In this document: positions 402 through 38,513 of the stretch, one piece after another
Layout of the letters: the number at the start of each line of letters is the position of its first letter
Numbering within the stretch: the first letter of the stretch is position 1
Source of the DNA: Sporocytophaga sp.
Lineage (GTDB): Bacteria > Bacteroidota > Bacteroidia > Cytophagales > Cytophagaceae
Length of the DNA: 62,606 nt
Direction of reading: 5' to 3'
Assembly (NCBI RefSeq): GCF_017745095.1
Contig: NZ_JAGHZZ010000026.1
Location: 1 to 62,606, forward strand
The notes under the pieces: model-generated
What the model saw: the letters and a program-made list of their open reading frames with translations, nothing else
What the model was told of the DNA's origin: nothing
Databases searched by the model: none
Position numbers and translations under genes: made by a program

Positions 402-664
402 TTAACACTTCGGACAGGTACTTTTTCTGTTTTGTTCAAGTCTTGCAGCTTTAGCTTGTCTGGTTTGTTCGGAAAAGTCTATATCGGAAAGTTTTTGAGT
501 ATAGGCTTCTATAGGAGTAAGTCCATTGAGGGCATAATGAGGTCTGAAAAGATTATAGTCTTCAATGGATTTTATAATGCAGCCAAAGAGTTCTTTGAAA
601 GATTGTGGCAGGTTATGTCTGATATAACGCTTCATGATTTTGTTGATGGCTTCTGGGGTGGATC
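402..664 (-). pseudogene. IS3-family transposase, C-terminal remnant
   Basis: The minus-strand frame gives about 87 residues with the end of an rve (DDE integrase) core: YNLFRPHYALNGLTPIEAY, the usual C-terminal block of IS3/IS150-type transposases, then a basic tail ending in a CPKC motif. An ATG at 635 opens a 77-residue frame, but homology-like sequence (STPEAINKI) continues upstream until an in-frame TGA near 665. The catalytic D,D and most of the protein are missing, so this is a dead fragment. The plus-strand sequence just beyond the break reads as an unrelated RHS-like remnant, so the element was cut at that point. Confidence 0.75.
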
Positions 665-897
665 AAGGGGTGTGAATCCGGTACTCTTGATGTAACAAGA
701 GATGTGAGTAAAGATGCTAATCAGGATGCACTAATAGGTAAGGATGGGGTTCATAAAATGTGTGTAAGGATGCTTATAGTTATAATCTTCATTATTTTGA
801 CGAGATTAAAAGCCCACTCGATGTAACTGATAATTCAATCGCACATTTTATGTGTCCTTGTAATTATTGGAATATATATCATATCATTTTGCTTTAA
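661..897 (+). pseudogene. RHS/YD-repeat-like protein, frameshifted remnant
   Basis: Reading from about 661 in the frame of GAA at 674 gives SGTLDVTRDVSKDANQDAL and on to HKMC. Around 763-768 the frame moves by one base and continues as DAYSYNLHYFDEIKSPLD to TAA at 895-897. The DAYSY.L.YF block resembles the core motif found near the end of Bacteroidota RHS repeats. No complete frame covers it and no start is seen. The left boundary coincides with the truncated transposase, so this looks like debris joined by an insertion or deletion. The family call rests on one short motif. Confidence 0.5.
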
Positions 898-900
898 TTA

Positions 901-1526
901 CTAAAATTTGATTCCGAAAATATTCAACCTTTGCGATTTATTAAGCTGCTTGAAGTATTTATGGATCATTTCTTCAAGATGTTGAGAGTTCTTGACGTCA
1001 CTGTCAATTTTGATTGTAATAAAATTTAAAGCCATTCTGACTCGCTCCCTTGTTTTTGCTGTGTCGTTTTTATCAACATTCTCCATGTAAGCCCTGACAT
1101 GTTCATCGAATAAATCTTCATAGTAAGTATGGTTGCGACCTTTTAATCGATCTATTATGTTGTAGATATTATGGATTTCTCCAAAAGCAACAGGATTATT
1201 AAGGATTTTGTATAGGTCAGTTTTTTTATGGTGTCAAAGGTGTGCCTTGAGAAAAAACAATCATTGAATCTTTCATTTCTTAAATCTTCATAAAAGTCAT
1301 GTCTTTGTCCTTTGTTTAAGGCGTCCAGACCTTTTTTATAGATTTTATATAATTTTGATATTTCCTGTCGGTAAATTTTTCCTGTGCTTGCTTGGTGCAC
1401 TATATCAGAAAGAATTATTTTCCTGATATTACTAATTTCAAGTTTCTTTATAAAATAGTCAAAGATAACTTTTAGTATGATAGCTATCAATGCACCTATA
1501 AATCCTGTTAGAACTTTTTCAGCCAT
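901..1526 (-). pseudogene. Membrane-anchored protein split by a -1 frameshift at A7
   Basis: The first frame starts at ATG 1526 and encodes a short N-terminal membrane segment (FIGALIAIILKVIFDYFI, about residues 8-25) and a charged helical domain. It runs into LEKSIISTT and a stop at 1155. The sequence after TIKK is replaced in the -1 frame by TDLYKILNNPVAFGEIHNIY, which continues without a stop through MENVDKNDTAKT to the stop at 901. The join falls on a run of seven A's on the minus strand (T7 at 1221-1227) in the setting ATA AAA AAA CTG. Fused, the product is about 208 residues. Either one A was lost (mutation or sequencing error) or the run is a slippery site. Family not recognised. Confidence 0.6.
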
Positions 1527-1791
1527 GAAGAAAAGTATGTTATTTTGTAACTACAATTAGTAAGTTTATGCAATTACTGTTTCTGTAATTTAAATCGAGG
1601 CTAGGGAAATTATTGAAATTACCAGTGCTAAAGAAATAAAAGATAAAGGTAACTGTATCACTGGAGAACACTTCAAGTATCGTCTATATTACTTTACTCT
1701 TTTTATGATAACAACCCTCTTCTGAATTCGACAGTTATTGAATTATAGCTTGTCTTAAATGTTTTAAAGCTTGAGATAATAGAACTGAATT

Positions 1792-2874
1792 TTATCTGAC
1801 AATCAAATATTCCTGATGCCTACCTTTTTCTGTTACTATTTCCACTATATATGTACCGGGTTTTAATTCTTTCGTAGATATTGAATTCAAATTGCTACTG
1901 CTATCCATTTGTTTAAGAAGGCTCCCATTTAAATCATAAATGCTGGTTGAATAGCTGCTTGTTTTATTGTTTGAATTATCAATGTTTACATTTACTGTCT
2001 CTCCTGCTACAACAGGATTAGGATAGATTAAAGGAATATTGCTATTACCACTTAAATCAACAAAAATCGTCTTCAAATCTTCATGTTGCCCATCGTTATC
2101 AAATTGAATAAGTTTGATATAACAGGAGGAATTTACGGGTAAAGAATATATGTATTCGGTAATTCCGGTAGTATTATTCTTTCCTTCTTGAAATCCAATT
2201 AACTGGAAATTTATGCCATCCTCACTTTTATATATTTCAAAGCCAGCATTGTTTTTCTCAGCTATAGTTTTCCACTTAAGATTTATGTGTGAAGATTCTA
2301 TTGTATAAGAAATGCCAGTTAACTTCACTGGTGCTACAAATACTGTGAAATCTGTAATCAGAGGATTAACATTACCTGTTGTTTCGAATGGTGTATGACC
2401 TAAAAATCCGGATCCGTCTATATAACCAAGGTTCTGAAAAGTACCGTAGGAGGTAAGTGTACCATTGACTACTACACCATTACTGTAATTAGTAAAGCTA
2501 TTTGAAGTAGTTATCTGGGCAATTGCTCCTACATTGATATTACCTGACTGTACATTGAGGTTATTAGCTATAACCTGGCCATTTTGTAAGTCAAATAAGC
2601 CTCCCTGAATAGTAATTGTACTGCCCTGTAAGGATTGTCCGTTTTCAATGGAAATACTGCCACCAGTCTTTACTGTTAAGTTTGTAAAAGACAAATTGTT
2701 GTTTACTGTTACGTTGTCGGTTTCCGATGGTAAGCAGCTACAGGAAGGCCCTCCAGGGGTTGTCGACCAATTGCCTGGATCATCCCACGATCCATCATTA
2801 CGACTATAAAGGTTAGCTGAAAAACTAAAATGGCAGCTGGTGTAAAGTAAGGTGAAAAGAAAAAATTTTTTCAT
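1792..2874 (-). CDS. Secreted surface protein with T9SS type-A sorting domain
   Basis: About 360 residues when started at MKKFFLF (ATG 2872-2874), which places a normal signal peptide (MKKFFLFTLLYTSCHFSFSA) at the N-terminus; an ATG 24 bases upstream would only add a poor leader. The mature N-terminus carries a W-x-DPGNWS motif with a Cys pair, then Gly/Asn/Thr-rich beta repeats (SISIENGQSLQGSTITI), a fibronectin-like middle region, and a C-terminal sorting domain opening with IYPNPV and ending GTYIVEIVTEKG. This is the layout of Bacteroidota T9SS cargo; the function is probably adhesive or structural but unproven. It is flanked on both sides by decayed genes and by AT-rich spacers. Confidence 0.8.
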   Translation of the reverse strand: MKKFFLFTLLYTSCHFSFSANLYSRNDGSWDDPGNWSTTPGGPSCSCLPSETDNVTVNNNLSFTNLTVKTGGSISIENGQSLQGSTITIQGGLFDLQNGQVIANNLNVQSGNINVGAIAQITTSNSFTNYSNGVVVNGTLTSYGTFQNLGYIDGSGFLGHTPFETTGNVNPLITDFTVFVAPVKLTGISYTIESSHINLKWKTIAEKNNAGFEIYKSEDGINFQLIGFQEGKNNTTGITEYIYSLPVNSSCYIKLIQFDNDGQHEDLKTIFVDLSGNSNIPLIYPNPVVAGETVNVNIDNSNNKTSSYSTSIYDLNGSLLKQMDSSSNLNSISTKELKPGTYIVEIVTEKGRHQEYLIVR

Positions 2875-2961
2875 TATAATTAATTGTACGAACGGCAAAG
2901 TTAACCTTATAAAACGATTTTTACAATCGATAAATCAGCAATTCTACTCTTAAATGTTAAA

Positions 2962-4257
2962 TCATTGGTACTTATAATTATTCCCCAGGAAATACCACAA
3001 TTCTTGAGATGTTCCGGAGAATATAAAGTTTTTAGTAACCTTATTGTAATTTTTAGGATCTATACAAATAGGAGAGGAAAGCGGTAAACTTCCCATAGTT
3101 TTAAAAGAACTTGAATTATATAATAATAAAAAGATAAAACAGAGACGACAGATTGGTGGAGCATTGACATATCCTTCTATAGTTCTTTTACATAACATAC
3201 TGGCAGCAGTGTTTTTATGATTATATTCCTGGAATGAAAGTAAGTTATATTTTGATTGCAATGTTTTGCTGCTATTCCAGTTGAGTACGAATTTTAATGC
3301 CATTTCATTTTTCTGTAATAGTAGACAGGCGTGGGAATGTCTCGAAATATGGAAATGTACTTTCTTCGAAACACCTGCTTTAGTAAACCAAACTTCAAGT
3401 TTTTTGTATTGAGTGTACTTCAGTCCTTGAAAAACTTTCTGAGTTTGATCTTCTGGTTTTTCACCTAATAGTTTTACTGCACTTTCTGAAAGGGGAGTAG
3501 TTTCTGATTCTTTGGTTTTCTTTTGTCGGTATCTTAAAATCCATCCTGTGGCATCGGAGACTTGAACTTCTGACCATTTTAATTCTTCACAATCCGAAAA
3601 TCTTAATCCTGTTAAATAACAGAATAAAAATGCCCGTTTTAAAACAGGTACAGAGCAATCAGTTTTAGCCAATAAAGTAATTTCTTCCTCGGTTAAAAAC
3701 TCTCAATGTGGGGCATTGTATTTAATACTCTTCACAAGAGTTGCTGGATCATCAGATATTAATTTTTCTCTGTATGCTTGATGGACTGAATGTTTAATTA
3801 TATCAAAATAAGATGCGGAACTGTTTTGTGAAACTTGCGAACGAAAATGTTCCTTTATATCATCAAGTATAGATACTGTTAAGTTTTTTAAAAGTATGTG
3901 GTCCCTATCTTCAAAAAAGCTTTTTAAATGTTTTAAGGCACTACGCCATGCATCGTAGTTAATATTGGACTTTCGTCTCTTTTCTGTTAGTTCTTCAAAC
4001 CAATTGAGAAGTGTGATATCTTTCTTAATGTATTTTTGACCAAAGGTGCCATTGATAATTTGTTCCTGGATAGTTATTCTGATCTTCTCTGCGGTTAAAC
4101 GTGTTTTTTCGTTTAACTGTCTAACTTCCGCTGAAGTAGGTTTTTCCAGGTAAAGTTCAAGGCTCTTATGTTTATTCTTACCATTGTGATAAATATCCAG
4201 ATAAAGACTTTGTCTACCATCCTTAAGTTCCTTCATTCTTAGTTTTACGCTGCTCAT
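2962..4257 (-). pseudogene. Tyrosine site-specific integrase interrupted by one TGA codon
   Basis: Residues 1-184 (ATG 4257) have the arm-binding start typical of Bacteroidota integrases (DGRQSLYLDIYHNGK) and a SAM-like core-binding domain. An in-frame TGA at 3703-3705 follows NAPH, and the same frame resumes immediately as EFLTEEEITLLAKTDC and on into the catalytic domain. Visible catalytic residues are the first Arg in YLTGLRFSD, and His and Arg in HISRHSH. The third box reads LNWNSSKTLQSKYN where LGH..-..TTQ.YA is usual, so His is replaced and the Tyr context is weak. The tail after IEGY looks like read-through. Either broken by a point mutation or sequencing error, or the TGA is suppressed. 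The excisionase-like gene just upstream fits a mobile-element end. Confidence 0.8.
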
Positions 4258-10120: not shown

Positions 10121-11050
10121 TTACTTTAGTGCAGTAGTAATCTTATGAACATTGCTGGTAACCATTCCTATATATGTGCCTTCAAAGGTACCCTTGGCAC
10201 CCATGGCGTCACTATATAAAGTACCACCAATTGAAATTTCATGGCCTTTTTCTTTTACACCTTTTACTACTGCTTCGATAGCTTTAGGAGAAACAGAAGA
10301 TTCTACAAAAACAGCTTTAATTTTTCTTGAAACAATAAAATTTACAAGTCCGGTTATGTCATTCAACCCAAAATCAGATGATGTGGAGATTCCTTGTAAA
10401 CCTTTTACCTCAATTGAGTATGCCTTGCCAAAATACCCAAACGCATCATGTGCAGTAATCAAAACCCGTCTTTCCTGAGGGATTGACTGAATTTCATTTT
10501 TTACCCAATGATCCAGTGAGTCAAGTTGCCTTATATATTTAGCAGCATTATGCTCATAATAATCTTTCTTTAAATTATTGATTTTCACAAGGCTGTTATA
10601 AATCTCTGCGACCGATTTGGTCCAAAGGTGTACATCAAACCATATATGCGGATCAAAAGCATCGGCAAATTGAGGAGCAGTCATTAATAGGTTATGCGGT
10701 ATACCGTTGGAAACCGGAATTACTGGTTTAGATTTGGCTAGTTTTTCCAGAATTTCAGCCATTTTTCCCTCAAGGTGCAAACCATTATAAAAGATGATAT
10801 CGGCTTCTGAAAGCTTCTCAAGATCTCCGTGAGTAGCTTTATAAAGATGCGGATCGACTCCCGGTCCCATGAGCGCAATGATGTCCGCAGAGGTGTCAGC
10901 AATGTTTTTTACTGCATCTGCAATCATGCCGGTAGTCGTTACAATTAATAGTTTTTTCTTTTTTTCGGAAGCTTTTTCAGAACATGAAAAAATGGATCCT
11001 GAAAAGATAATTAAAAGTATTACGAATAAAATAAAATTGTATTTTTTCAT
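10121..11050 (-). CDS. Metal-binding lipoprotein of the ABC importer (cluster A-1)
   Basis: 309 residues with a lipoprotein signal (FSGSIFSC, lipidation Cys about residue 23). It is a ZnuA/MntA/TroA-type solute-binding protein: the first metal His in GPGVDPHLYKATH, the second in NGLHLEGKM, then a DPHIWFDVHLW block and the RVLITAHDAFGYFGKAY segment, with the late acidic ligand in GGTLYSDAMG. There is no His-rich loop, which slightly favours Mn or Fe over Zn. Its start overlaps the stop of the upstream regulator gene by four bases (ATGA), so translation is probably coupled. Confidence 0.93.
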   Translation of the reverse strand: MKKYNFILFVILLIIFSGSIFSCSEKASEKKKKLLIVTTTGMIADAVKNIADTSADIIALMGPGVDPHLYKATHGDLEKLSEADIIFYNGLHLEGKMAEILEKLAKSKPVIPVSNGIPHNLLMTAPQFADAFDPHIWFDVHLWTKSVAEIYNSLVKINNLKKDYYEHNAAKYIRQLDSLDHWVKNEIQSIPQERRVLITAHDAFGYFGKAYSIEVKGLQGISTSSDFGLNDITGLVNFIVSRKIKAVFVESSVSPKAIEAVVKGVKEKGHEISIGGTLYSDAMGAKGTFEGTYIGMVTSNVHKITTALK

Positions 11051-11709
11051 GATTCGGCAATGAGAATATTTTTAGCTACTTCACTTGATACTAGTATTGT
11101 TTTTTTATTATCAATCAGAATTTCTAGAGAACCGTCGAATTCAATTTTATCCATTACCTTGATTTTCGCCCCAATATAAATTCCTGCTTTATCGAGATAT
11201 TGAAGAAATAAAGGGGAGGTCTCCTTCAATCCTATAACTTTTCCCTGGTTATGTAAATCTGTTTCCGATAAGGGAGTATGTTTCTTAGCTTTCATTTCTC
11301 CACGTTCATTCGGAATGGGATCTCCATGCGGATCAAACGGGGGGAATCCTAGAAATTCATCTAATCTCTCTATCAGTAAGTTAGATTGAATGTGTTCAAG
11401 TTGTTCTGCAATTTCATGCACTTCATCCCAGTTAAACTTTAACTTTTCAACAAGGAAAACTTCCCAAAGTCTGTGTTTTCTGATAATCTGAAGAGCGATC
11501 TTTTTGCCGCTAGGAGTTAATGAAACTCCTTGATACTTGATATAGTTAATGACTTCTTTCTGTGAAAGTTTTTTAAGCATATCACTGACAGAGGCAGGCT
11601 TTGTATTTAAAGCATCGGAGATGGCATTGGTAGAAACGTCAATTTTGCCATCCTCGGAAAGGTGGTAAATCGCTTTTAGATAGTTTTCTTCTGTAAAACT
11701 CAGAAACAT
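11047..11709 (-). CDS. DtxR/MntR-family metal-dependent repressor
   Basis: 220 residues. Winged helix at about 1-65 (FTEENYLKAIYHLSE, then STNAISDALNTKPASVSDML), a dimerisation and metal-binding domain (RKHRLWEVFLVEKLKFNWDE, HEIAEQLEHIQS, then FDPHGDPIP) and a C-terminal FeoA/SH3-like domain (about 145-220). The E..EH and HGD ligands are present. First gene of the metal-import operon and so probably its repressor; palindromes that fit a DtxR-type operator lie just upstream. Which metal it senses (Mn or Fe) cannot be fixed from sequence. Confidence 0.93.
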   Translation of the reverse strand: MFLSFTEENYLKAIYHLSEDGKIDVSTNAISDALNTKPASVSDMLKKLSQKEVINYIKYQGVSLTPSGKKIALQIIRKHRLWEVFLVEKLKFNWDEVHEIAEQLEHIQSNLLIERLDEFLGFPPFDPHGDPIPNERGEMKAKKHTPLSETDLHNQGKVIGLKETSPLFLQYLDKAGIYIGAKIKVMDKIEFDGSLEILIDNKKTILVSSEVAKNILIAES

Positions 11710-11729
11710 GATTCAGGCTAATTGTAATA

Positions 11730-11771
11730 CAAATATATGAAAATTTAGGTTTGTCTAAAAAAAAGTTTAGA
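11730..11771 (-). promoter_or_regulatory. Promoter with overlapping DtxR-type operator palindromes
   Basis: Read on the minus strand, TATATTTG (plus 11730-11737) fits the Bacteroidota -7 element TAnnTTTG, about 20 bases from the regulator start. Immediately upstream are two overlapping inverted repeats: TTTAG-6-CTAAA (11744-11759) and TCTAAA-6-TTTAGA (11754-11771). Their size and TTAGG/CTAA half-sites resemble DtxR/MntR boxes, and they cover the -33 region where a repressor would block RNA polymerase. Confidence 0.55.
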
Positions 11772-11792
11772 TTTATTTTATTGTATTGATAG

Positions 11793-12932
11793 TTAATTGT
11801 TTAAGTAGTTGTTGATGACTTGAAGAAATTGAATTTCTTCAGAATCCCAGGTTATATTTTCTGGTTGAGAGGTATAAAAAATGTGTTGTTTTAACTTTTC
11901 TAAAAGGTCCTCAGGTTTTGACTTATTGAAATCATATGTGATGGCGGCATTGTAAGAGTCTGTAATTGAGGTCCAAATGTGATTTGATGGAATAATCATT
12001 GGCAGATATAGGGAAAGGTATTCATATAATTTGGTGGGAATACAATTTTCAGTGCTTTTATTGGGGACGTAGCTAAGGATTCCTATATCTGAATTTTTAA
12101 TTTGCTTTAATATTTCTGAGTGGGCTACAGGTGAATCTCCTCCGATAAGATTGATAAAAGGATAGTCTTTGATTTCTGATTTTAATTTATTAAGTATTTC
12201 TTTTTTAGGTGAATATCCTATTACAGTTAAAGTAATATTTGAATCTATTTTATGAAGCTTTTTTATAAGATCTATTGCTTTAAATATTCCATAGACTTCT
12301 GAAATTGTTCCAGAATACAGGAATCGAAAACCTTTATTAGGCTTAATCTTAAAAGCTTGTTTAATGACTGGTGGAATTCCCTCATTTTTAAATTTATTCT
12401 CTACCACACAGCTTTTGTTCCTTGTAAAAGAAAACTCTGATTCATAATTCCTCTCCGCTAGAAAATAAAAATCTATAAAAGGTCTCGTCAGAATTTCAAA
12501 AAGCCTGACTCCGCTGGCGATAATATTTCGAACGAATGGTGGAAAAGTTGGAGTGAAGCGGATATTTCGATAATAGTTTTCCTGAACATCATAGATTAAA
12601 ACTGTACCTGAAATTATCTTATATAAAATACTAACTAGCAGAATTTCATGGGTAGTAATGATGACTAGTTGAGGTTTTACTTTAAGTAAAAGTTTCAATA
12701 ATTTTATCTGAGCGCTAAACCTGGAAATATGCAATCTGGATGCTGAAAATAGGGTGTGAAAGAATATTCGATTTTCAGAAGTAGCATTTTTGGTAGGAGA
12801 AAATCCGGCAATATGAATTTCCACATCATTGAGTTTAAGTAATGATTTTGCAAATTTTTCGTACATTCGGGTCTCATTTACCGGTTTGAGCACCGAGGCC
12901 AGAAGTATTTTGGCTGTTTTACTCATTGACAC
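11793..12932 (-). CDS. Glycosyltransferase, GT-B fold (GT4-like)
   Basis: 379 residues. The N-terminal half begins ILLASVLKPVNETRMYEKFA and the second domain has FLYSGTISEVYGIFKAIDLI and the C-terminal SDIGILSYVPN, CIPTKLYEYLSLYLPMI, the nucleotide-sugar binding and E-x7-E-like region of family GT4/GT1 enzymes. Probably transfers a sugar during polysaccharide or glycolipid synthesis; donor and acceptor unknown. It is divergent from dapD with only about 37 bases between the starts, and not in an obvious polysaccharide cluster. Confidence 0.82.
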   Translation of the reverse strand: MSMSKTAKILLASVLKPVNETRMYEKFAKSLLKLNDVEIHIAGFSPTKNATSENRIFFHTLFSASRLHISRFSAQIKLLKLLLKVKPQLVIITTHEILLVSILYKIISGTVLIYDVQENYYRNIRFTPTFPPFVRNIIASGVRLFEILTRPFIDFYFLAERNYESEFSFTRNKSCVVENKFKNEGIPPVIKQAFKIKPNKGFRFLYSGTISEVYGIFKAIDLIKKLHKIDSNITLTVIGYSPKKEILNKLKSEIKDYPFINLIGGDSPVAHSEILKQIKNSDIGILSYVPNKSTENCIPTKLYEYLSLYLPMIIPSNHIWTSITDSYNAAITYDFNKSKPEDLLEKLKQHIFYTSQPENITWDSEEIQFLQVINNYLNN

Positions 12933-26950: not shown

Positions 26951-27505
26951 GTGAAAAGATTTTTAAAATATTTCTCAATTGCTGTAATCATTGTCTTTTT
27001 GATACAGTCTTCCTTTATTGCTGTTGACGGACTTCGGGACGATAAAGTAAAAACAGATTGTATTCTGATACTGGGTAATAAGGTTAATGAAGATTGTACG
27101 CTTTCTCCAAGATTAAAAGCTCGATCGGATAAAGGCCTTCAGTTATTTCGTGAAAATCCGTCATCGATCATCATTGTTTCCGGAGGACTTGGGAAGGAAG
27201 GATATTATGAAGGTACTGAGATGAAAAGGTATCTTGTTGATCGGGGTGTTCCTTCTCAAAAGGTCATAGCAGATGATCTTGGAATTAATACTTTACAAAC
27301 TGCTAATAATTATAAGAAACTGAGTGAAACGTATCACTGAGTAGTGTTACCGTTGTATCCCAATATTATCATATTTACAGAACTAAACATTTACTTAGGA
27401 AAGTTGGTGCGAGTCAAGTCTATGGTGCACACGCAGACTTGACTCGAGTGGAGGGATTTTAATTCGATGTTTAGAGAATGTATTGCTTTTTATAAATACT
27501 GGTAA
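26951..27505 (+). pseudogene. YdcF/ElyC-like (DUF218) protein, two frameshifts
   Basis: GTG 26951 opens a frame with an N-terminal helix (YFSIAVIIVFLIQSSFIAV) and the DUF218 core: DCILILGNKV, LSPRLKARSDKGLQLF, IIIVSGGLGKEGYYEGTEM, VIADDLGINT. It stops at 27340 after KLSETYH. In a neighbouring frame the family sequence continues, SSVTVVSQYYHIYRTKHLL, ASQVYGAHADL, and after another one-base shift near 27447 as WRDFNSMFRECIAFYKYW to TAA 27503-27505. Together about 180 residues, the usual size. DUF218 proteins act at the cell envelope (ElyC in peptidoglycan/lipid-carrier control). Two shifts suggest real decay, though the errors could be sequencing ones. Confidence 0.75.
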
Positions 27506-27549
27506 ATGCAAAAAGTTTCGGAAATGTCCGAATGACGACGAGTTAACGA

Positions 27550-29196
27550 TTAACGAATTAAAGTAATATTGATTACTTTGTTTTCATCGACAACAATAGC
27601 ATAATAACCAGCATCTGCCATTGAACCGTCTGTTTTTGTTCCGTCCCAGACTGCGGGAGCAACAAGTTCTTTGATTAAATTTCTTCCTGAATCCAGTATT
27701 TTAATTTTGCCTGGAGTTTCGATAAAATAAGAATCCATATAACCGTCACCATTCGGACTGAATACAGCTTGACAATCTTTGGGTTTCTGAAGGGTGAACG
27801 ATGATGTTGAACCTTTACAATTAAACTGGTCATTAACAGTAAATCTATATATGCCCGCCTCCAGGTTATTGTAACGGAAATTATCAAGAGTAAGAGTATC
27901 AGCTTTTGTGACTGATTTGATGCCAAAACGATAAGGTGGAGTTCCTCCCTTATATTCAACTCCTTGCAACTCTATTGAATATCCTTCTTTGCAATTTTCA
28001 GAAAGAATATTTATTGATTTATAGGACAATTCAATACATGGCTTTACTGTCAGAACCAAATTAGTACTTTTGAGTACCAGTGAAGGTAGAGCCTTCAATC
28101 TTATTTCCTGAAAATATCCTCCGGACTGCTCTGGAGTTAGAGGAGATAAAGTCAGTGCTGATGATTTATTTGTATTGTCAGCAATCCCATTTTTAAACCA
28201 TTGGTACGTTACAGGTAGCGTCACATCAACCTTCGGATCATATATGAAAGGTTCTGTTTGGTCTTTCAACTCTAGGTTCTGATCAATTATAAAAGGCTTT
28301 TGAGGAGTATAAATGAACTTGCTAAACTGAGGGTGATTTTTAAGAGGTAAGATGTCTTCAAACGTGAGATAATTATCAGAAATATTCACGTTGTCCAAGT
28401 TGAATTTTGCTAGCAGATCCGGAAGGCTAGATAATTTGTTATTTGAAACATTAAAGACTTTCAGGGTTGTATTAGCTTTAAGGTCTGATAGATCTTTCAG
28501 ATTATTGCCTTGTATAAATAATACTTCCAGAAAGTTCAGATCTTTCAAACCTATGATGGTGTCTAATCCAAGATGATTTAAATGTAGCTGTTTAAGATTT
28601 TTTAAAGCAGATACATTTTGAAATATAGGCGTCGGATTATTTCCGACAACAAGTATTTCCAAATTTACATAACCTGAAAGATCAGGCATTTCTGTCAATT
28701 GATTATTGCCACAAGACAATGTTTTTAAATTTGGAGAAGAAGGCAAAGCCGGTAATTTTTTAAGCTGGTTATTATAAACCTGAAAATCCTCTAAATTAAC
28801 AAGAGTAATTAAAGAGGGTAATTCTGTGATATTATTATTATACAGGTATAATAATCTCAGATTTGTAAGTCGTGAGATATCCGGAATTGTTGTAATGTGA
28901 TTAAAACCCAATTTGAGTGTATAGACGTTGGTAAAGTACGATATTCCGGTAGCGTCATTAATGTTTGAGTATTCCAGATTCAACTCACCATAAAAATCTT
29001 TGGCCTTAATAGTATCCAGCTTACCATCTTTCATATAAGCAGTATAATCCTTCTCTAGTTTTGCTCTAAGGTTTTCGTCAGGTATTTCAACAAGATTATC
29101 CTGTGCACTGACATTTAAGCCAACCAAAACAAAAGCTATAAAAAGGAAAATTCCTTTATACTTTAACGTTTTTATCTGAAGGTTACTCAAAATCAT
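27550..29196 (-). CDS. Leucine-rich-repeat surface protein with T9SS type-B C-terminus
   Basis: 548 residues. Signal peptide (GIFLFIAFVLVGLNVSAQ), then about nine leucine-rich repeats (LRLLYLYNNNITELPSLI, NLKTLSCGNNQLTEMPDL), an Ig-like stretch (VTYQWFKNGIADNTNKSSAL), an SprB-type repeat segment (CKEGYSIELQGVEYKGGTPP) and a gliding-motility C-terminal domain opening AVFSPNGDGYMDSYFIETPG and ending with VDENKVINITLIR. The C-terminus is the type-B signal for T9SS export to the surface. Overlaps the preceding anti-sigma-like gene by four bases, so the two are translationally coupled. Confidence 0.9.
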   Translation of the reverse strand: MILSNLQIKTLKYKGIFLFIAFVLVGLNVSAQDNLVEIPDENLRAKLEKDYTAYMKDGKLDTIKAKDFYGELNLEYSNINDATGISYFTNVYTLKLGFNHITTIPDISRLTNLRLLYLYNNNITELPSLITLVNLEDFQVYNNQLKKLPALPSSPNLKTLSCGNNQLTEMPDLSGYVNLEILVVGNNPTPIFQNVSALKNLKQLHLNHLGLDTIIGLKDLNFLEVLFIQGNNLKDLSDLKANTTLKVFNVSNNKLSSLPDLLAKFNLDNVNISDNYLTFEDILPLKNHPQFSKFIYTPQKPFIIDQNLELKDQTEPFIYDPKVDVTLPVTYQWFKNGIADNTNKSSALTLSPLTPEQSGGYFQEIRLKALPSLVLKSTNLVLTVKPCIELSYKSINILSENCKEGYSIELQGVEYKGGTPPYRFGIKSVTKADTLTLDNFRYNNLEAGIYRFTVNDQFNCKGSTSSFTLQKPKDCQAVFSPNGDGYMDSYFIETPGKIKILDSGRNLIKELVAPAVWDGTKTDGSMADAGYYAIVVDENKVINITLIR

Positions 29197-30290
29197 CTTA
29201 ATACAGTAATCTGTCCGTTTTCTTTCTGACCATTTGAATATTCCACTATATAAACATATAATCCGGCTACAGCCAGATTACCTGTCATATCATTACCATT
29301 CCATTCTGCGATTTCTCCTTGGCCTGTTTTTGTCTTAAATATAAGCAATCCTGCTCTATTGTATATTGAAAGTATTCCAGCTTCTTCTGAAGAAATCGGA
29401 ATTTTCAGAGTTTCACCGAATTCAGGACTAAAGCTGAATGATTGCTTTTTGTAACATTCTTTTTCGGATACCAATACTACCTTTTCTTTCACGCAACCAG
29501 ATTGATCTTTGACTTTGACTGTATAACTGCCCGGTCTTAGATTGGTGTAACTTGATAAAGAAGAAAAATTTCCGTTCCCATTAAATTCATAGGAGTAAGG
29601 TGCTGTACCGCCTTTAAGGCTGTTTTCTGTAACTTTTATTTCTCCTGTAGCACCATTGATGCAAGAGCTTGTTGAGGAAAGTGTAAAGTTAATATTTACA
29701 TCCGCGCAAGCATCTGATTGTTTGACAACTGATGATTTGGTTGTAATTGTATCAGATTTAATTATCTCCGTTCCTTTTTGTAAAGTTATTTCATTCTTGA
29801 TTTCTGAAGGAACTGAATCTAAAAAGTTTTCGGAAGAGTTACTAATCTGTGGTTTTATCCATACCTTTTTATTTACATGCTTTTTAGTATTCGGAGATAA
29901 AGATAACCCATTGCTTTGCAATGAATCACTTACATTAATAAGGGGTTTTTCCGATGGACTTTTAGAGGAAGTTGTCTTATCTGATTTGATGTTGTTAAAG
30001 ATACCAAGACCTGTAGCTACACTAATAAGTAAAAGAAGTGAACCTCCCAATAACCACTTATTAGAGTTATTTTTTTGATCCAGTTGTTTTATGTCTTTTT
30101 TGATTCGATCTCTTAGAACGTCTAGTTCAGCACCGAGAACAACCTCATTAAGGAGCTGCTGATTAGCAACTTCATCTCTTAATGCGGGATCTTCAGCTAA
30201 AGCTATTTGAAATTTCGCTAAAGCATCTTCCTTCAGTTCCCCGTTGAGGTATTGATCAATCTCAAAGTAATATTCAACGCCTTCTTTCAA
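29193..30290 (-). CDS. Putative anti-sigma factor with SprB repeat and T9SS type-B C-terminus
   Basis: 365 residues. The N-terminal 75 are cytoplasmic and helical with an anti-sigma-like zone (FEIDQYLNGELKEDALAKFQ, then EDPALRDEVANQQLLNEVV). One membrane helix at 79-98 (LLGGSLLLLISVATGLGIF) is followed by a Ser/Lys linker, an SprB-type repeat (TSSCINGATGEIKV, then GGTAPYSYEFNG) and a C-terminal domain (LSIYNRAGLLIFKTKTG, then GLYVYIVEYSNG, ending QITVLR) like type-B T9SS cargo. Having a membrane anchor plus a surface sorting domain is odd. It sits between the ECF sigma gene and the LRR gene with four-base overlaps on both sides, which supports a sigma-restraining role. Confidence 0.8.
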   Translation of the reverse strand: MKEGVEYYFEIDQYLNGELKEDALAKFQIALAEDPALRDEVANQQLLNEVVLGAELDVLRDRIKKDIKQLDQKNNSNKWLLGGSLLLLISVATGLGIFNNIKSDKTTSSKSPSEKPLINVSDSLQSNGLSLSPNTKKHVNKKVWIKPQISNSSENFLDSVPSEIKNEITLQKGTEIIKSDTITTKSSVVKQSDACADVNINFTLSSTSSCINGATGEIKVTENSLKGGTAPYSYEFNGNGNFSSLSSYTNLRPGSYTVKVKDQSGCVKEKVVLVSEKECYKKQSFSFSPEFGETLKIPISSEEAGILSIYNRAGLLIFKTKTGQGEIAEWNGNDMTGNLAVAGLYVYIVEYSNGQKENGQITVLR

Positions 30291-30865
30291 TGCTTTAATA
30301 AATTTAAAAGATTCTTATCTTCATTTACCAGTTTCTGCAAATATTGCTTACACCTGTAGTTATTGGTTTTAGCCACATTTTCACTTGCATAGCCCATTTT
30401 CTCACTGATTTCCCTCATGCTTAATTTCTCAAAAATAGAGAAGCGAAGTATCTTCTGGCACTTTTCATCTAGTCTCTCAAATACCAACCTCATTGCCGAA
30501 GATTTTTCCTTTGTGATTAAATCTCCAAGATGATCAGAGTTGTCAGAAACTTCACTTTCAATCAGACTCAGATCTTTATTTTGAATTCGTTTATCCCTCC
30601 GTACTTTATCAATCCATAGATTTCGAGAAACAGAAAAGATAAAACCGTCAATTCCATATTGTTGGTTAAATTTATTTTGCTTCACTTGATTAAAAAAGAT
30701 TACAACTGCATCCTGAAAAATATCACTTGCTTCTTCCAATGAACCATTGTTCTGAAGAACATACCTTCGGACCTTTTTTAAAGTATGTTCGTAAAGATAA
30801 TCAAGTACAGGGTCATTTTCACCCTGTTGGATACATTCTATAATTTTTGAATCTATTTTATTCAC
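30287..30865 (-). CDS. ECF RNA polymerase sigma factor (locus 1)
   Basis: 192 residues. Region 2 (DIFQDAVVIFFNQVKQNK, then FIFSVSRNLWIDKVRRDK) and region 4 with the helix-turn-helix (LRFSIFEKLSMREISEKMGY, then VAKTNNYRCKQYLQKLV) are clear. The sigma-70-family ECF type is usually kept inactive by a partner encoded next to it, which here is the membrane protein at 29193. Divergent from a PorP/SprF-like gene with 105 bases between. Its own promoter target may be in that gap. Confidence 0.93.
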   Translation of the reverse strand: MNKIDSKIIECIQQGENDPVLDYLYEHTLKKVRRYVLQNNGSLEEASDIFQDAVVIFFNQVKQNKFNQQYGIDGFIFSVSRNLWIDKVRRDKRIQNKDLSLIESEVSDNSDHLGDLITKEKSSAMRLVFERLDEKCQKILRFSIFEKLSMREISEKMGYASENVAKTNNYRCKQYLQKLVNEDKNLLNLLKH

Positions 30866-30970
30866 ACTTCCTGATCCTACGATTTGAAAATAAAAAAGTA
30901 AACACTAGCTTCACGGCTATTATTTTTAATTTTACGAGAATAACTGTTAAATATTACAGAAATTATTCCT

Positions 30971-31840
30971 GTGTCCGGATTCAGACTAATTATATTAGTA
31001 ATTTTTATATTCCCTTCTATTGTCAGAGGTCAGTCCAGGTCTGAAGTTCCGGATCTCTTCGATCAATTTTTTAATAATTACTATCTACTAAATCCTGCTG
31101 CTACAGACACAAGCTATAAATTTAAAATCAGGGGAGAAAACAGAACTCAGACCGGACTTTTTGAGGGGATTAGCAAGCTTTATGTTGATGCAGATTTTAA
31201 AATAAGAGATAAAGAAGGACGATCCCAATTCCTTGGATTGCAGGCTATCAATTTTAAAGAAGGTGATTTTATAAACAGAAGCAGGCTTTATGGAAGATAC
31301 TCCTGGAGGACAAATCTTTCTGAATATTCTTCATTATCAGCTGGTGCTGCTTTAGGAATTGTGAATTATAACTTCAGAGGTTCTCAGGCAGGGGCGGGAG
31401 GAAGCTCAACTGTTATGGACGGAAGTGTAGGTATATGGTATAGCTGGAAAAAACTTTATTTGGGAATCGCAGGTCAACAAATATTAAAGACTAAGCTTCA
31501 ACCTATAAATCAACAGTTTCAATTGGATCGTTATTGGAATTGTAATATGTTTTATACTTTTCAGATTACTCAATTTCTTGATTTCAGTCCGCATTTATAT
31601 ACAAGACTGCAAAAAGGAACTGAAAATGTTCAGTTGGCAGGGGTTTTTGATATTTATGATTTGGTGAGTGCGGGGGTAAACTTAAAATATAAAAGAGGGA
31701 TAGCATTTATTGCCGGATTCAAAAACTTAAAAATTGGAAACTCAGGATTTTCATTATATGCCTCTTATATGGCAGGTACTAATAGCCCGTCAATATTGGA
31801 TGACAATGCTGTAGAATTTTATCTTAGTTTTCAACGGTGA
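30971..31840 (+). CDS. PorP/SprF-family T9SS outer-membrane protein
   Basis: 289 residues from GTG 30971. Signal peptide (FRLIILVIFIFPSIVRGQ), then the family start FDQFFNNYYLLNPAATDT, internal beta-strand repeats, SLSAGAALGIVNYNFRG, and the C-terminal strand VEFYLSFQR. PorP/SprF proteins hold type-B T9SS cargo such as SprB on the outer membrane. Its neighbours on the opposite strand encode a type-B LRR protein and an SprB-repeat anti-sigma protein, so it probably serves them. Confidence 0.87.
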   Translation: MSGFRLIILVIFIFPSIVRGQSRSEVPDLFDQFFNNYYLLNPAATDTSYKFKIRGENRTQTGLFEGISKLYVDADFKIRDKEGRSQFLGLQAINFKEGDFINRSRLYGRYSWRTNLSEYSSLSAGAALGIVNYNFRGSQAGAGGSSTVMDGSVGIWYSWKKLYLGIAGQQILKTKLQPINQQFQLDRYWNCNMFYTFQITQFLDFSPHLYTRLQKGTENVQLAGVFDIYDLVSAGVNLKYKRGIAFIAGFKNLKIGNSGFSLYASYMAGTNSPSILDDNAVEFYLSFQR

Positions 31841-31964: not shown

Positions 31965-34823
31965 ATGAAGAAAAGACTATTCTTATTACAAATTCTAGTT
32001 TTTTTAATTTATACTCGGCAGTCTGTAATAGCGCAAACTACCAATACGTGGAAAAATGTAGCAATAGGAGCAGGTGGGTTTGTTTCCAGTATCATTACAA
32101 GCAAAACTGAAGCTAATTTAGTATATGCTCGAACAGATGTGGGCGGTGCTTACAGATGGGATGCTGCTAAGAATGTATGGGTTCCTCTTACTGACTGGGT
32201 TTCTGATACTGAAACAGGATATCTTGGAGTAGAAGCCTTGGCAATAGATCCTCAGGATTCTAAGAAGGTATATATGCTGGTAGGAATAGACTATTTTAAC
32301 GGAGGTAAAACAGCTATCCTTCGTTCCAGCGATTACGGAAATACTTTTATAGTAACTGAAGTAACATCTCAATTCAAAGCACATGGCAATGGAATGGGAC
32401 GTCAGAATGGTGAAAAACTTGTTGTAGATCCTAATTTAAGTTCTCTCTTATTTTGTGGTACCAGAAGAAATGGGCTTTTTAAAAGCACCAATTCAGGTGC
32501 AGCCTGGAGCAAAGTAAGTGGATTGAGTGTCTCTAGCACTCCTAATGATAACGGCATCAGCTTCGTGCTAATTGATCCTACCAGTGGAACTAATGGTAGT
32601 GCATCTAAAACCATATTTGCAGGAGTTTCCCAAACAGGAACTAACCTTTATGTAAGTAAAGATGGTGGGGCTACTTTCAATGCTATTTCTGGAGGCCCTA
32701 CCAACTTTATGCCTCAAAGAGCTGTACTTGCTACAGATGGAAATCTTTTTATCACATATGGAAACGGAGCAGGACCACATGGCCATTGGAGTCTTCCGGA
32801 ACCTATGGATAATGGGGCTATCTGGAAATACAATACTAAAACAGGTACATGGACTAATGTAACACCTTCCGGTTATGCAAGAGCTTTCGGCGGAATTTGC
32901 GTTGATCCTAATAACCCAAACAGACTTGTAGCTTCAACTATAAATACCTATCTGCAACAAAATAATGCATGGGGTGACAGAATTTTTCTGAGTACAAACG
33001 GAGGAAGCTCATGGACAGATATTTTTTCGAAAGGTCTTACACTAGATCAGAATGATTGCCCCTGGATTGCTGATCAGGCCATACACTGGGCTGGTTCTAT
33101 TGAGTTTGATCCTTTTAATACTGCAAAAGTCTGGGTAACTTCTGGAAATGGTGTATTTAAGACGGAAGATATTAATGCTTCAAAGACCACATGGAAATTC
33201 ATGCAAAAAGGCCTTGAAGAAACTGTTCCTCTAGATATGGTGAGCATTCCTGGCGGACCTCTGGTTTCTGCTCTTGGTGATTACGACGGCTTTGTTCATA
33301 CAGATATTACTAAATATTATTCCAGACACACTCCAACTACAGGTACTACTACAGGTATTGCTTTCGCATCCAAAAAGACAAGTACAATGTTACGTGTTGG
33401 TAGCGAAATGTACTACTCCACGAATCAAGGTGTAAGCTGGACAAAGTGTAATAAAAGTGGTTTGAGCGGGGTTAAAGGGAGCGTAGCAATATCCTCTGAC
33501 GGAAAAGTATTTTTAAATTGTCCCGATGCTTCCTCTACAACTTATAGATCCACAGATAATGGAAATTCATGGACAGCATGTTCAGGGTTAAATATATCTA
33601 ATGCCTTTCCAGTAGCTGATGCAGAAAATGCCAACAAGTTTTATGCCTTCAATGAATCAAGTGGAGCTATGCTCGTGAGTACAGATGGAGGTATTTCTTT
33701 CAGCACTTCAGGAAATGCAGGATCTGGAGGAGCGAGAGTGATTCGTACTACTCCAGGAAAAGAAGGACACTTGTGGGTCCCACTTTGGAATGGCCTGGCA
33801 CGATCAACAAACTCTGGTCAGTCATTTACAAAAGTTAATAGTGTTACTTATTGTGGTGCGGTTGGACTTGGAAAGGAAGCTCCAGGTAAAAGCTATCCTA
33901 CCATTTACATATGGGGGACAATCAACAATGTAATAGGTATTTACCGATCTATAGATGAAGGTGCAACTTGGGTGAGGGTAAATGATAATGAACATGAATT
34001 CGGTGGACCTGGCAATGCTAAGATGGTGTTGGGAGATATGAATGTGTACGGAAGAGTATATATGAGCACTGCGGGAAGAGGTATAGTATATACTGAAACG
34101 GGAACGCCGGATTGTGCCGGAGTCGTAGGTGGGGCGGCCTATCTTGATAATTGTAGTACCTGTGTTGGCGGAACCACCGGAAAACAACCATGTGTGGCAG
34201 ATTGTAATGGAGATTTTGGAGGTACAGCTTTCAAAGATAACTGTGATGTCTGTGTTGGAGGAAAAACTGGCAAAACAGCCTGTGTGAAAGATTGCAATGG
34301 TGTTTTTGGTGGAACTGCATTTAACGACAATTGTAATATTTGTGTAGGTGGCAATACTGGTAGAGTTGCCTGCGTAAAAGATTGCCATGGTGAATATGGC
34401 GGAAAAGCTTATTTGGACAACTGTCAGACCTGTGTTGGCGGTAGCACGGGGATGACAGCTTGCTCCAAAGATTGTAATGGAGATTGGGGTGGTACAGCAG
34501 CACTGGATGTCTGCAATGTATGTGCCGGAGGTAAGACAGGAAAAGTCCCTGTTGTAAATCAAAGTGAATGTACTGTCACATCTATTGATAATATTCAGTC
34601 TGGTGACATGGTATCAGTTTATCCAAACCCTTTTAGTGCTGATTTTACTATAGCATCAGAAGGTCAGTTTAAATATTCTGTTATTAATAATACTGGTCAT
34701 ATTGTTGCAATGGGCACAGCTGAAGGCCAATTGGTTTTAGGAGCTGAGCTTTCTGCTGGCATGTACCTTTTAAAAATTGAAAAAGTCGGTAAGACTACGA
34801 TCAGAAAGATTGTAAAATACTGA
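31965..34823 (+). CDS. GH74 xyloglucanase with Cys-rich repeats and T9SS type-A domain
   Basis: 952 residues. Signal peptide (FLLQILVFLIYTRQSVIAQ), then a twin seven-bladed propeller typical of GH74: the entry motif VYARTDVGGAYRWD with a catalytic Asp, sialidase-type Asp boxes (STNGGSSWTD, STDGGISFS, STNSGQSF, SIDEGATW), and a possible second catalytic Asp in SALGDYDGFVH. Residues about 716-865 are five 30-residue Cys repeats. The last 70 are a type-A sorting domain (VYPNPFSADFTI, then LSAGMYLLKIEKV). The enzyme is expected to cut xyloglucan or beta-1,4-glucans outside the cell. No other glycan gene is adjacent. Confidence 0.95.
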   Translation: MKKRLFLLQILVFLIYTRQSVIAQTTNTWKNVAIGAGGFVSSIITSKTEANLVYARTDVGGAYRWDAAKNVWVPLTDWVSDTETGYLGVEALAIDPQDSKKVYMLVGIDYFNGGKTAILRSSDYGNTFIVTEVTSQFKAHGNGMGRQNGEKLVVDPNLSSLLFCGTRRNGLFKSTNSGAAWSKVSGLSVSSTPNDNGISFVLIDPTSGTNGSASKTIFAGVSQTGTNLYVSKDGGATFNAISGGPTNFMPQRAVLATDGNLFITYGNGAGPHGHWSLPEPMDNGAIWKYNTKTGTWTNVTPSGYARAFGGICVDPNNPNRLVASTINTYLQQNNAWGDRIFLSTNGGSSWTDIFSKGLTLDQNDCPWIADQAIHWAGSIEFDPFNTAKVWVTSGNGVFKTEDINASKTTWKFMQKGLEETVPLDMVSIPGGPLVSALGDYDGFVHTDITKYYSRHTPTTGTTTGIAFASKKTSTMLRVGSEMYYSTNQGVSWTKCNKSGLSGVKGSVAISSDGKVFLNCPDASSTTYRSTDNGNSWTACSGLNISNAFPVADAENANKFYAFNESSGAMLVSTDGGISFSTSGNAGSGGARVIRTTPGKEGHLWVPLWNGLARSTNSGQSFTKVNSVTYCGAVGLGKEAPGKSYPTIYIWGTINNVIGIYRSIDEGATWVRVNDNEHEFGGPGNAKMVLGDMNVYGRVYMSTAGRGIVYTETGTPDCAGVVGGAAYLDNCSTCVGGTTGKQPCVADCNGDFGGTAFKDNCDVCVGGKTGKTACVKDCNGVFGGTAFNDNCNICVGGNTGRVACVKDCHGEYGGKAYLDNCQTCVGGSTGMTACSKDCNGDWGGTAALDVCNVCAGGKTGKVPVVNQSECTVTSIDNIQSGDMVSVYPNPFSADFTIASEGQFKYSVINNTGHIVAMGTAEGQLVLGAELSAGMYLLKIEKVGKTTIRKIVKY
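34110..34559 (+). repeat. Five tandem 90-bp repeats encoding Cys-rich 30-mers
   Basis: Inside the GH74 gene, units begin at 34110, 34200, 34290, 34380 and 34470. Each encodes DC.G..GG.A..D.C..CVGG.TG...C and ends just before the next DC. Units 1-4 have four Cys each; unit 5 lacks the final Cys (CAGG, then KVPVVN), but an SEC follows. Likely a disulfide-bonded stalk between the catalytic domain and the sorting domain. Confidence 0.95.
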
Positions 34824-37895: not shown

Positions 37896-38513
37896 ATGGT
37901 GCTATCAGATAACGATATCGTTAGAGGTTGTGCGAAAGGGGATTTAAAATCTCAGGAAGCTTTATTTAAAAAATATGGCCCTGAGCTGAAGAAATTATCT
38001 TTCCGGTACTCAAAAAGTGTTGAAGATGCAAAAGACATTTTTCAAGAAGCTTTCATTAAAATTTTTAAAGATATAAACTCTTTTCGCAATGAAGGCGCTT
38101 TAATCGGCTGGATGAAAAGAGTTACTGTAAACACCGCAATTTCTTTTTATAGAAAAAAAAGCAATTCCGGATTTTTTCATTTGTCAATTGAACCTGAATC
38201 TGAAGAGGAGTTAGGAAGCAGAGATAGTAGTCTACAAAAATATTTTAATGAAACGGAGGAAATCGAAGACGAAGATTTTAGTGAATATGAAAAAGCTTTG
38301 TCAAAACTTTCTTACGAACAGTTAATAAATCTTATAAAATCTCTTGATCCTCCGCAAAATATAATCTTTAACATGTTTTATGTTGAAAATTATTCCCACA
38401 AGGAAATTGCCAGAGAATTAAAAATTAGTGAAAATAATTGCAGAACTTTACTTCACAGGTCCAAAAAGAAGTTAAAGGATTCAATCAGAGTATTAATTTA
38501 CCATACAGTTTAA
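37896..38513 (+). CDS. ECF RNA polymerase sigma factor (locus 2)
   Basis: 205 residues. Region 2 (EALFKKYGPELKKLSFRYSK, DAKDIFQEAFIKIFKDINSF, then GWMKRVTVNTAISFYRKK) and region 4 (ESLDPPQ-like LIKSLDPPQNIIFNMFYVEN, SHKEIARELKISENNCRTLL) are intact. An acidic insert (EPESEEELGSRDS) separates the two regions. It leads a three-gene unit with a membrane protein that starts two bases after its stop. Confidence 0.93.
   Translation: MVLSDNDIVRGCAKGDLKSQEALFKKYGPELKKLSFRYSKSVEDAKDIFQEAFIKIFKDINSFRNEGALIGWMKRVTVNTAISFYRKKSNSGFFHLSIEPESEEELGSRDSSLQKYFNETEEIEDEDFSEYEKALSKLSYEQLINLIKSLDPPQNIIFNMFYVENYSHKEIARELKISENNCRTLLHRSKKKLKDSIRVLIYHTV

Follow-up and report, generated by a model that had tools for sequence, protein, structure and literature searches.

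In Clostridium thermocellum, sigI3 is described as activating its own promoter and that of pl11, and sigI6 its own promoter and that of xyn10 (PMC4711584), and an extracytoplasmic function (ECF) σ factor of Cytophaga hutchinsonii is reported to control cellulose use through chu_1276 (work cited in PMC12016534 and PMC10766802). From the field of the type IX secretion system (T9SS), it is reported that the tail of SprF becomes disulfide-linked to GldK only once SprB has been exported and loaded (PMC12635249), and that in Flavobacterium johnsoniae the mutation of any one of five type-B motifs stopped secretion (PMC12618676); these statements, like all others cited here, are drawn from partial texts of the sources. 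Here we describe a gene cassette found in a stretch of 62,606 nucleotides from Sporocytophaga sp. (contig NZ_JAGHZZ010000026.1, referred to as the window), in which an ECF σ factor, an anti-σ-like membrane protein (AS), a leucine-rich repeat (LRR) protein and a PorP/SprF-type barrel are encoded next to an enzyme of glycoside hydrolase (GH) family 74. The data support the existence of parallel, self-amplifying σ circuits, many of which have one polysaccharide enzyme, and the way in which these circuits would sense is proposed below. We give a probability of about one half to the reading that the cassette is a multi-copy signalling unit for plant polysaccharides, leading from the outer membrane to the cytoplasm, in which the LRR protein and PorP would form the receptor, the AS would dock on it, and the σ factor would transcribe its own operon plus one enzyme gene.

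An earlier note on this DNA, made from the sequence alone, had taken these genes for a single candidate surface-sensing system, and its gene order was reproduced together with its coordinates: the σ/AS and AS/LRR junctions are four-base overlaps, the PorP/SprF-type gene starts 105 bases from the σ gene on the opposite strand, and the GH74 enzyme comes next, with positions, PorP_SprF profile and PDB matches in agreement. That the genes belong to one system is borne out by their recurrence. The own genome has 11 complete cassettes (the window and L009-L018), nine of which show a PorP gene followed by the divergent σ-AS-LRR order, and own-genome profile searches, with 54 matches for CHU_C, 32 for PorP (one below the cut-off) and 24 for the σ factor, indicated the same places. 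In L010 (2486-4138) and L017 (2192-4219) the cargo gene, as the LRR gene and its counterparts are called here, lies on the PorP side, away from the AS gene, and its product has a cargo tail and no LRR match.

Conservation beyond this genome was followed in a sample gathered by AS and σ searches, not by PorP or cargo, which gave 176 σ genes, or 163 after sequence deduplication; a PorP was counted at 60 bits or more within 4.5 kb, and a cargo tail within 6.5 kb. There are 85 σ genes that precede an AS with a CHU_C-like domain, and near these the neighbours are conserved together, as the earlier note had required of its model: PorP in 82, a cargo tail in 79 and both in 78, the seven incomplete cassettes being L145, L157, L160, L036, L170, L182 and L186, some of them at contig ends. 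Near the 78 σ genes whose partner lacks a CHU_C-like domain, PorP was found seven times, namely at three loci with a split AS (L162-L164) and at four loci of one variant. In genome G018, the AS of L162, L163 and L164 is in two frames, broken in the linker or close to it, and the PorP of L125 is split; such frames could be assembly errors or decay. The variant, L019 4683-14001 (C44, own genome; orthologues L165, L166 and L167), has a 246-residue AS with an SprB-like part and no CHU_C-like domain, a 686-residue protein with a CHU_C-like tail, a standard-type PorP and a gene of polysaccharide lyase (PL) family 11, and by eye its σ and PL11 genes are both preceded by TGTTCAC-N17-TGTATA. As for the spread of the cassette, genome G003 has five copies, and the listed full-length matches of the AS come from 15 of 19 genomes of the family; with five candidates scored per genome, a match at 1e-25 was found in 23 of 390 genomes of the order (in one, G115, via the C-terminal half only), which rules out a cassette limited to one genus, and 395 genomes of the phylum gave four matches in all, with a full-length one in the own genome only.

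The σ factor is tied to its neighbourhood by promoter-like elements shared between the σ gene and the adjacent enzyme gene. The window element TGTTTAC-N16-CGTA has exactly two matches in the 6.63-Mb genome, before the σ gene and before the GH74 gene, and other cassettes have their own letters, with GTTTAC-N16-TGTA before the σ and GH10 genes of L009, TGAC-N15-ACGTAGC before the σ and GH5 genes of L013, and CGTTAC-N15-ATGTCTC before the σ and PL11 genes of L015. Genome-wide, the L013 and L015 patterns also match twice each, at σ and enzyme only; the reversed patterns, used as controls, gave four matches for the window and none for L013 or L015. Because the patterns were written from these very sites, the news of this search, which covered three of the 11 own promoter codes (window, L013 and L015), is the absence of a third site. 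A more general form, TTTAC-N15..18-[CT]GTA, is present in 18 of 85 σ upstreams versus 17 of 1700 shuffles. In direct comparisons between σ and neighbour upstreams, 12 of 26 scored higher than any of the 169 control upstreams (two of these 12 being orthologues), and when cognate and swapped pairs from 22 cassettes were compared, the result was 0 of 10000 permutations. A blind test was also carried out on 58 cassettes with 307 flanking genes, near-orthologues and loci cut too short being left out, with an anchor form ([TGC]AC) that was picked after seeing examples and applied equally to controls: of the 76 large flanking genes, 16 surpassed every one of the 244 control upstreams, where 0.3 would be expected, and two of 231 smaller ones did so (0.9 expected). 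Given the common element and the swap and blind tests, the σ factor very probably drives the adjacent enzyme gene, as had been suggested earlier. The promoter codes differ among cassettes, so that the cassettes could run in parallel.

The same tests did not bear out the companion suggestion that the σ factor also turns on the PorP gene, since none of 23 PorP upstreams beat the controls (best 14 of 169, in a shorter searched stretch) and the swap test gave a weak signal (77 of 5000 permutations); PorP was accordingly dropped as a target via a σ-type promoter. A loose pattern applied to two other genomes yielded 18 and 13 matches, whereas its reversed control yielded 77 and 38; the σ sites of L137 and L151 were among the matches, and the sites of their enzymes, which differ in letters or spacing, were not.

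The enzyme of the window belongs to the two-propeller xyloglucanases of GH74, residues 27-712 matching solved GH74-type xyloglucanases in a PDB sequence search (best E 1.7e-221), and its tail is a type-A T9SS domain. Around the own cassettes, domains of carbohydrate-active enzymes (CAZymes) are present in seven of 15 flanking genes of at least 500 residues (GH74; GH10; the carbohydrate-binding module CBM6 with a sub-threshold GH59; GH5; GH43; GH5; PL11), and in a control of 20 random positions they were present in one of 20 proteins scanned, out of 24 of at least 500 residues. The enzyme of L010 was rejected as a certain GH59 (24.8 bits, cut-off 27), its CBM6 being clear. Outside the own genome, 28 flank proteins were selected by size and, in many cases, by the presence of a type-A tail, so that they are not a blind sample; 15 of them are clear CAZymes (GH9, GH10, GH18, GH43, a GH74 homologue, PL11, and pectate and alginate lyases). 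PL11 adjoins cassettes in six genomes (L015, L049, L132, L136, L144 and L150), and GH74 adjoins the window orthologues L111, L119 and L125 and, at 40% identity, also L151 from another genus. Two flank proteins of L057 have Sortilin/BNR matches, but were discarded as GH74 members because they are not relatives of the window enzyme at 1e-20. In the neighbouring cassettes L014 and L015, the GH43 (10157-12583) and PL11 (603-3233) genes share a 190-residue stretch that is 84% identical, which suggests a recent exchange of C-terminal parts.

When the proteins are considered from a structural point of view, the σ factor is a member of the ECF group with regions 2 and 4, scoring 67.7 bits with TIGR02937 (cut-off 42.9) and over the cut-off with Sigma70_r2, while the region-4 models taken alone score below theirs. 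The AS has the context of an anti-σ factor, its gene adjoining the σ gene with an overlap and its product having a helical N domain (residues ~1-75) and one membrane helix (~78-97), followed by a disordered linker (~98-190) and by SprB-like and CHU_C-like β domains; it may bind and inhibit the σ factor. The structure model (mean pLDDT 66.9) agrees in having helices at 6-74, a helix at 84-97, disorder to ~190 and two confident β domains, with low confidence over residues 74-189. Of the domains that had been assigned to this protein, the helical N part, the single helix and a T9SS-type domain recognised by profile search (Pfam CHU_C, 37.4 bits, cut-off 27) stand, and the SprB repeat (22.4 bits, cut-off 28) and the type-B assignment (17.8 bits with the NCBI model, cut-off 35) fall short, the type-A model being just missed (21.4 versus 23). 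A PDB sequence search retrieved FlgD and the CHU_C of GhpA, and no convincing match for the N domain, and Foldseek with the model retrieved generic immunoglobulin (Ig) folds only. By simple hydropathy, which was used for all membrane-helix and signal-peptide calls on AS and cargos, 71 of the 85 AS have a membrane-helix-like segment, one has a second such segment, and none has a signal-peptide-like start. The linker is the least conserved part in four orthologue pairs (32-46% identity, with 96-98% for the σ factor). The N domain is present in 84 of 85 AS and also in the partners of 58 of the 78 related σ factors with other C-terminal parts, and would therefore be a σ-partner module with exchangeable ends. 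Ten partners of σ factors lacking a CHU_C-like AS were scanned, some having tetratricopeptide repeat (TPR), trypsin-like or peptidyl-prolyl isomerase (PPIase) domains and five having no family; an AS-type N domain joined to trypsin-like, PPIase or TPR domains is seen in L021 5506-6501, L094 7079-9598, L106 7069-8580 and L043 5254-6024.

The tails of AS and cargo are related, as profile cross matches show, and differ in one motif that the AS have lost: P[ND]xD[GNAL] is found in the last 100 residues of 62 of 79 cargos and of none of the 85 AS, and strict PNGDG in 36 cargos and no AS. We infer that this motif is one of the five that were mutated in F. johnsoniae, the equation being indirect because the letters are absent from the part of the text of PMC12618676 at hand. 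By cut-off and by motif, the AS is thus not recognised as a type-B substrate, and a role of its tail as the cleavable surface signal for T9SS export, proposed in the earlier note, is unlikely, given that each type-B motif was needed for secretion in F. johnsoniae (PMC12618676). The tail is a degenerate type-B domain, and may be a sorting domain turned docking arm.

The LRR protein (LRR_4, 73.8 bits, cut-off 27) reads SPNGDGYMD in its tail, which scores below both the CHU_C (20.1 versus 27) and the type-B (22 versus 35) cut-offs; the motif and the adjoining PorP speak for a type-B substrate, yet the scores do not. A signal-peptide-like start is present in 74 of 79 cargos, and the LRR protein may bind a glycan. 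The PorP matches PorP_SprF at 128 bits (cut-off 22.3) and lies just under the cut-off of TIGR03519 (87.7 versus 90.55). A PDB sequence search found no relative of it, and Foldseek with its model (mean pLDDT 82.4) gave as the top match chain F of the T9SS translocon complex 8gl6, which we take to be PorV. In the model the chain stops at its last strand, and the cassette PorPs are in general short at this end, with a median of 8 residues (7-30) after a conserved Glu in 78 of them versus 24 (14-35) in 20 standard PorPs of the own genome. The window PorP has seven residues past this Glu and no Cys in its last 40, so that an SprF-like CXC tail is absent, as it is from the standard PorPs of the own genome. 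The missing tail would leave room for the AS, and the link between SprF and GldK may serve as a precedent, by analogy, for the loaded state of a carrier being felt in the periplasm. Partial distance correlations were computed for 74 of the 85 cassettes, 50 of which were kept after redundancy removal, and gave for the periplasmic part of the AS 0.29 with PorP (bootstrap 0.09 to 0.49), 0.20 with the cargo tail (0.01 to 0.38) and 0.00 with the σ factor; the link with PorP minus that with σ was zero or less in 1.8% of 500 bootstraps. In 11 genomes with at least three complete cassettes, the tails of AS and cargo resemble each other slightly more when both come from one cassette, the observed value being reached in 3 of 2000 permutations; orthologous cassettes recur among these genomes, however, and two of the genomes go the opposite way.

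Taken together, these features could be accommodated in the following mechanism. The LRR protein would leave the cell through the T9SS and stay attached to the surface via its short PorP, with which it would form a receptor. The AS would sit in the inner membrane, its N domain binding the σ factor, and its disordered tether would span the periplasm and end in the two Ig-like domains, of which the last, a former type-B sorting domain, would no longer be exported and would dock on the PorP/LRR complex. When a ligand binds, the contact between AS and receptor would change and the AS would release the σ factor, probably by proteolysis; the free σ factor would transcribe its own operon together with the gene of one adjacent secreted enzyme, GH74 in the present case. 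In its fullest form, in which a T9SS carrier barrel has turned outer-membrane transducer, an exported type-B cargo serves as receptor, a sorting domain has been co-opted as docking arm by a periplasm-spanning anti-σ factor and the cassettes are insulated one-polymer, one-enzyme circuits, this picture seems to us to fall slightly short of an even chance.

Several observations weigh against this picture. Protein contacts, inhibition and ligand are steps that we infer, as are the docking of the AS on PorP and the route by which a signal would pass. The σ/GH74 pair of the window was reached by three of 169 controls and is absent from the 16 of the blind test, and L011, L012, L130, L154, L049, L171 and others have no detectable element in common with the tested neighbour; moreover, the 16 include a Na/H exchanger gene (L134 2087-4312), whose upstream element matches the σ promoter of that cassette better than all 244 controls do. 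A tail of at least 13 residues is retained by 21 of 78 cassette PorPs. Coevolution gives a modest signal that is not clean, as PorP has its strongest partial link with the σ factor (0.37), the AS N domain correlates with σ at only 0.14, the preference of the AS periplasmic part for PorP over the AS N domain is insecure (zero or less in 13.2% of bootstraps), and the tails of AS and cargo show no clear pairing when the own genome is taken by itself.

Other explanations can be formulated for the same genes. The AS itself might be the sensor, its Ig-like domains binding soluble oligosaccharides in the periplasm while PorP and LRR protein merely capture polymer at the surface, much as RsgI of C. 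thermocellum carries a polysaccharide-binding domain itself (PMC4711584); we consider this rather unlikely, as PorP and AS tail co-occur in 82 of 85 cases and the periplasmic part of the AS diverges with PorP. A receptor made of PorP and LRR protein on which the AS docks is favoured because that PorP and the AS arm co-occur and, modestly, diverge together. Somewhat less credible is a surveillance of export, whereby the AS arm would bind PorP or LRR cargo still in the periplasm and σ activity would report on the T9SS; the homology of AS and cargo tails and the dependence of the periplasmic state of SprF on SprB export and loading (PMC12635249) would suit it, but one enzyme per cassette and private promoter codes fit substrate-specific signals better.

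The model of the earlier note, in which the AS tail is a genuine signal for the T9SS and the σ factor is freed once the T9SS handles the outside part or this part is lost, can point to the recognition of CHU_C by Pfam; with the PNGDG-like motif missing from all 85 AS, the type-B model not reached, one membrane helix and no signal-peptide-like start, it appears distinctly improbable. About as improbable is a cassette that governs attachment to particles rather than the response to a given polymer, the enzyme then being incidental or just one target among several that lie elsewhere and have variant promoters. Adhesins are common among LRR surface proteins, and eight of the 15 large own neighbours are not CAZymes, both of which would agree with attachment; against it stand the element common to σ and enzyme genes and the recurrence of PL11 by cassettes in six genomes and of GH74 in two genera.

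The features of the locus are collected in the table below. In the gap past the end of the LRR gene (27341-27549), an exact 11-base inverted repeat, CGAGTCAAGTC / GACTTGACTCG, was noticed by eye and is possibly a terminator or a repeat remnant. Another weak σ-like open reading frame (ORF) of 205 residues begins at window position 37896 (+), scoring 36 bits with the cassette σ model. SprA, the T9SS translocon, is encoded in the same genome.

Table. Positions of the cassette genes, their tails and the promoter-like elements in the window
Feature	Position	Strand	Basis
LRR protein (548 aa), C-terminal domain type-B-like, candidate surface receptor	27550..29196	-	ORF, family profiles
Type-B-like tail of LRR protein, residues 477-537, with SPNGDG	27586..27768	-	CHU_C 20.1 bits, cut-off 27
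Anti-σ-like membrane protein (AS), 365 aa	29193..30290	-	ORF, Pfam, structure model
CHU_C-like domain of AS, residues 292-359, without PNGDG-like motif	29214..29417	-	Pfam
ECF σ factor, 192 aa	30287..30865	-	ORF, Pfam/NCBIfam
Promoter-like element TGTTTAC-N16-CGTA before σ gene	30878..30904	-	
Short PorP/SprF-type barrel, 289 aa, last strand at protein end	30971..31840	+	Profile and model
TGTTTAC-N16-CGTA before GH74 gene, kept in L111, L119 and L125	31891..31917	+	
Xyloglucanase of GH74 type (952 aa), type-A T9SS tail, candidate target gene	31965..34823	+	PDB sequence match

Little is established about the means by which Cytophaga, Sporocytophaga and other contact-dependent degraders sense insoluble polymers. 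As each circuit described here comes with candidates for receptor, holder, membrane partner, σ factor, promoter and target, the question becomes testable gene by gene. If PorP acts as a transducer, the T9SS would be a sensory as well as a secretory apparatus, and the cassette-specific promoter codes would be natural orthogonal σ parts.

A σ/anti-σ/PorP cassette was not found described in the open-licence PMC literature, among the matches listed and in the partial texts seen. Fec-type signalling combines an outer-membrane receptor, the periplasmic arm of a membrane-bound σ regulator and an ECF σ factor. These three elements have counterparts here, but the outer-membrane part of the cassette is a PorP with an exported protein, not a TonB-dependent receptor; none with a signalling domain was found among the eight window proteins scanned, to which that search was confined, and TonB receptors flank L016 and L051. 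In the PorA/PorXY-SigP system of Porphyromonas gingivalis, a protein with a T9SS C-terminal domain likewise influences an ECF σ factor from outside, but does so via a two-component system and controls T9SS genes (PMC7712824). Type-B cargos and their cognate PorP/SprF carriers resemble the cassette in that a type-B-like tail and a PorP-type carrier are encoded together; they serve secretion and gliding, however, and a σ/anti-σ partner is not described in the available parts of these sources (PMC12618676, PMC12635249). Closer in layout is Dma of Bacteroides, also a member of the Bacteroidota, which next to an ECF σ factor has an anti-σ N domain, a helix, a long disordered tether and an outer-membrane end; in contrast to the AS, whose tether ends in Ig-like domains and whose barrel would be a separate PorP with cargo, Dma has its own barrel in the same protein (PMC13088901). 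SigI/RsgI offers the closest match in circuitry, with many parallel σ/anti-σ pairs that each drive themselves and polysaccharide enzymes through promoter letters of their own (PMC4711584, PMC12203970). It differs in being Gram-positive, in having a σ factor of another family, σI, set apart by its description, and in that RsgI itself carries the outside sensor, with no outer membrane, carrier barrel or secreted partner. By analogy, the cassette may thus be described as having a logic like that of clostridial SigI/RsgI and an architecture like that of Bacteroides Dma.

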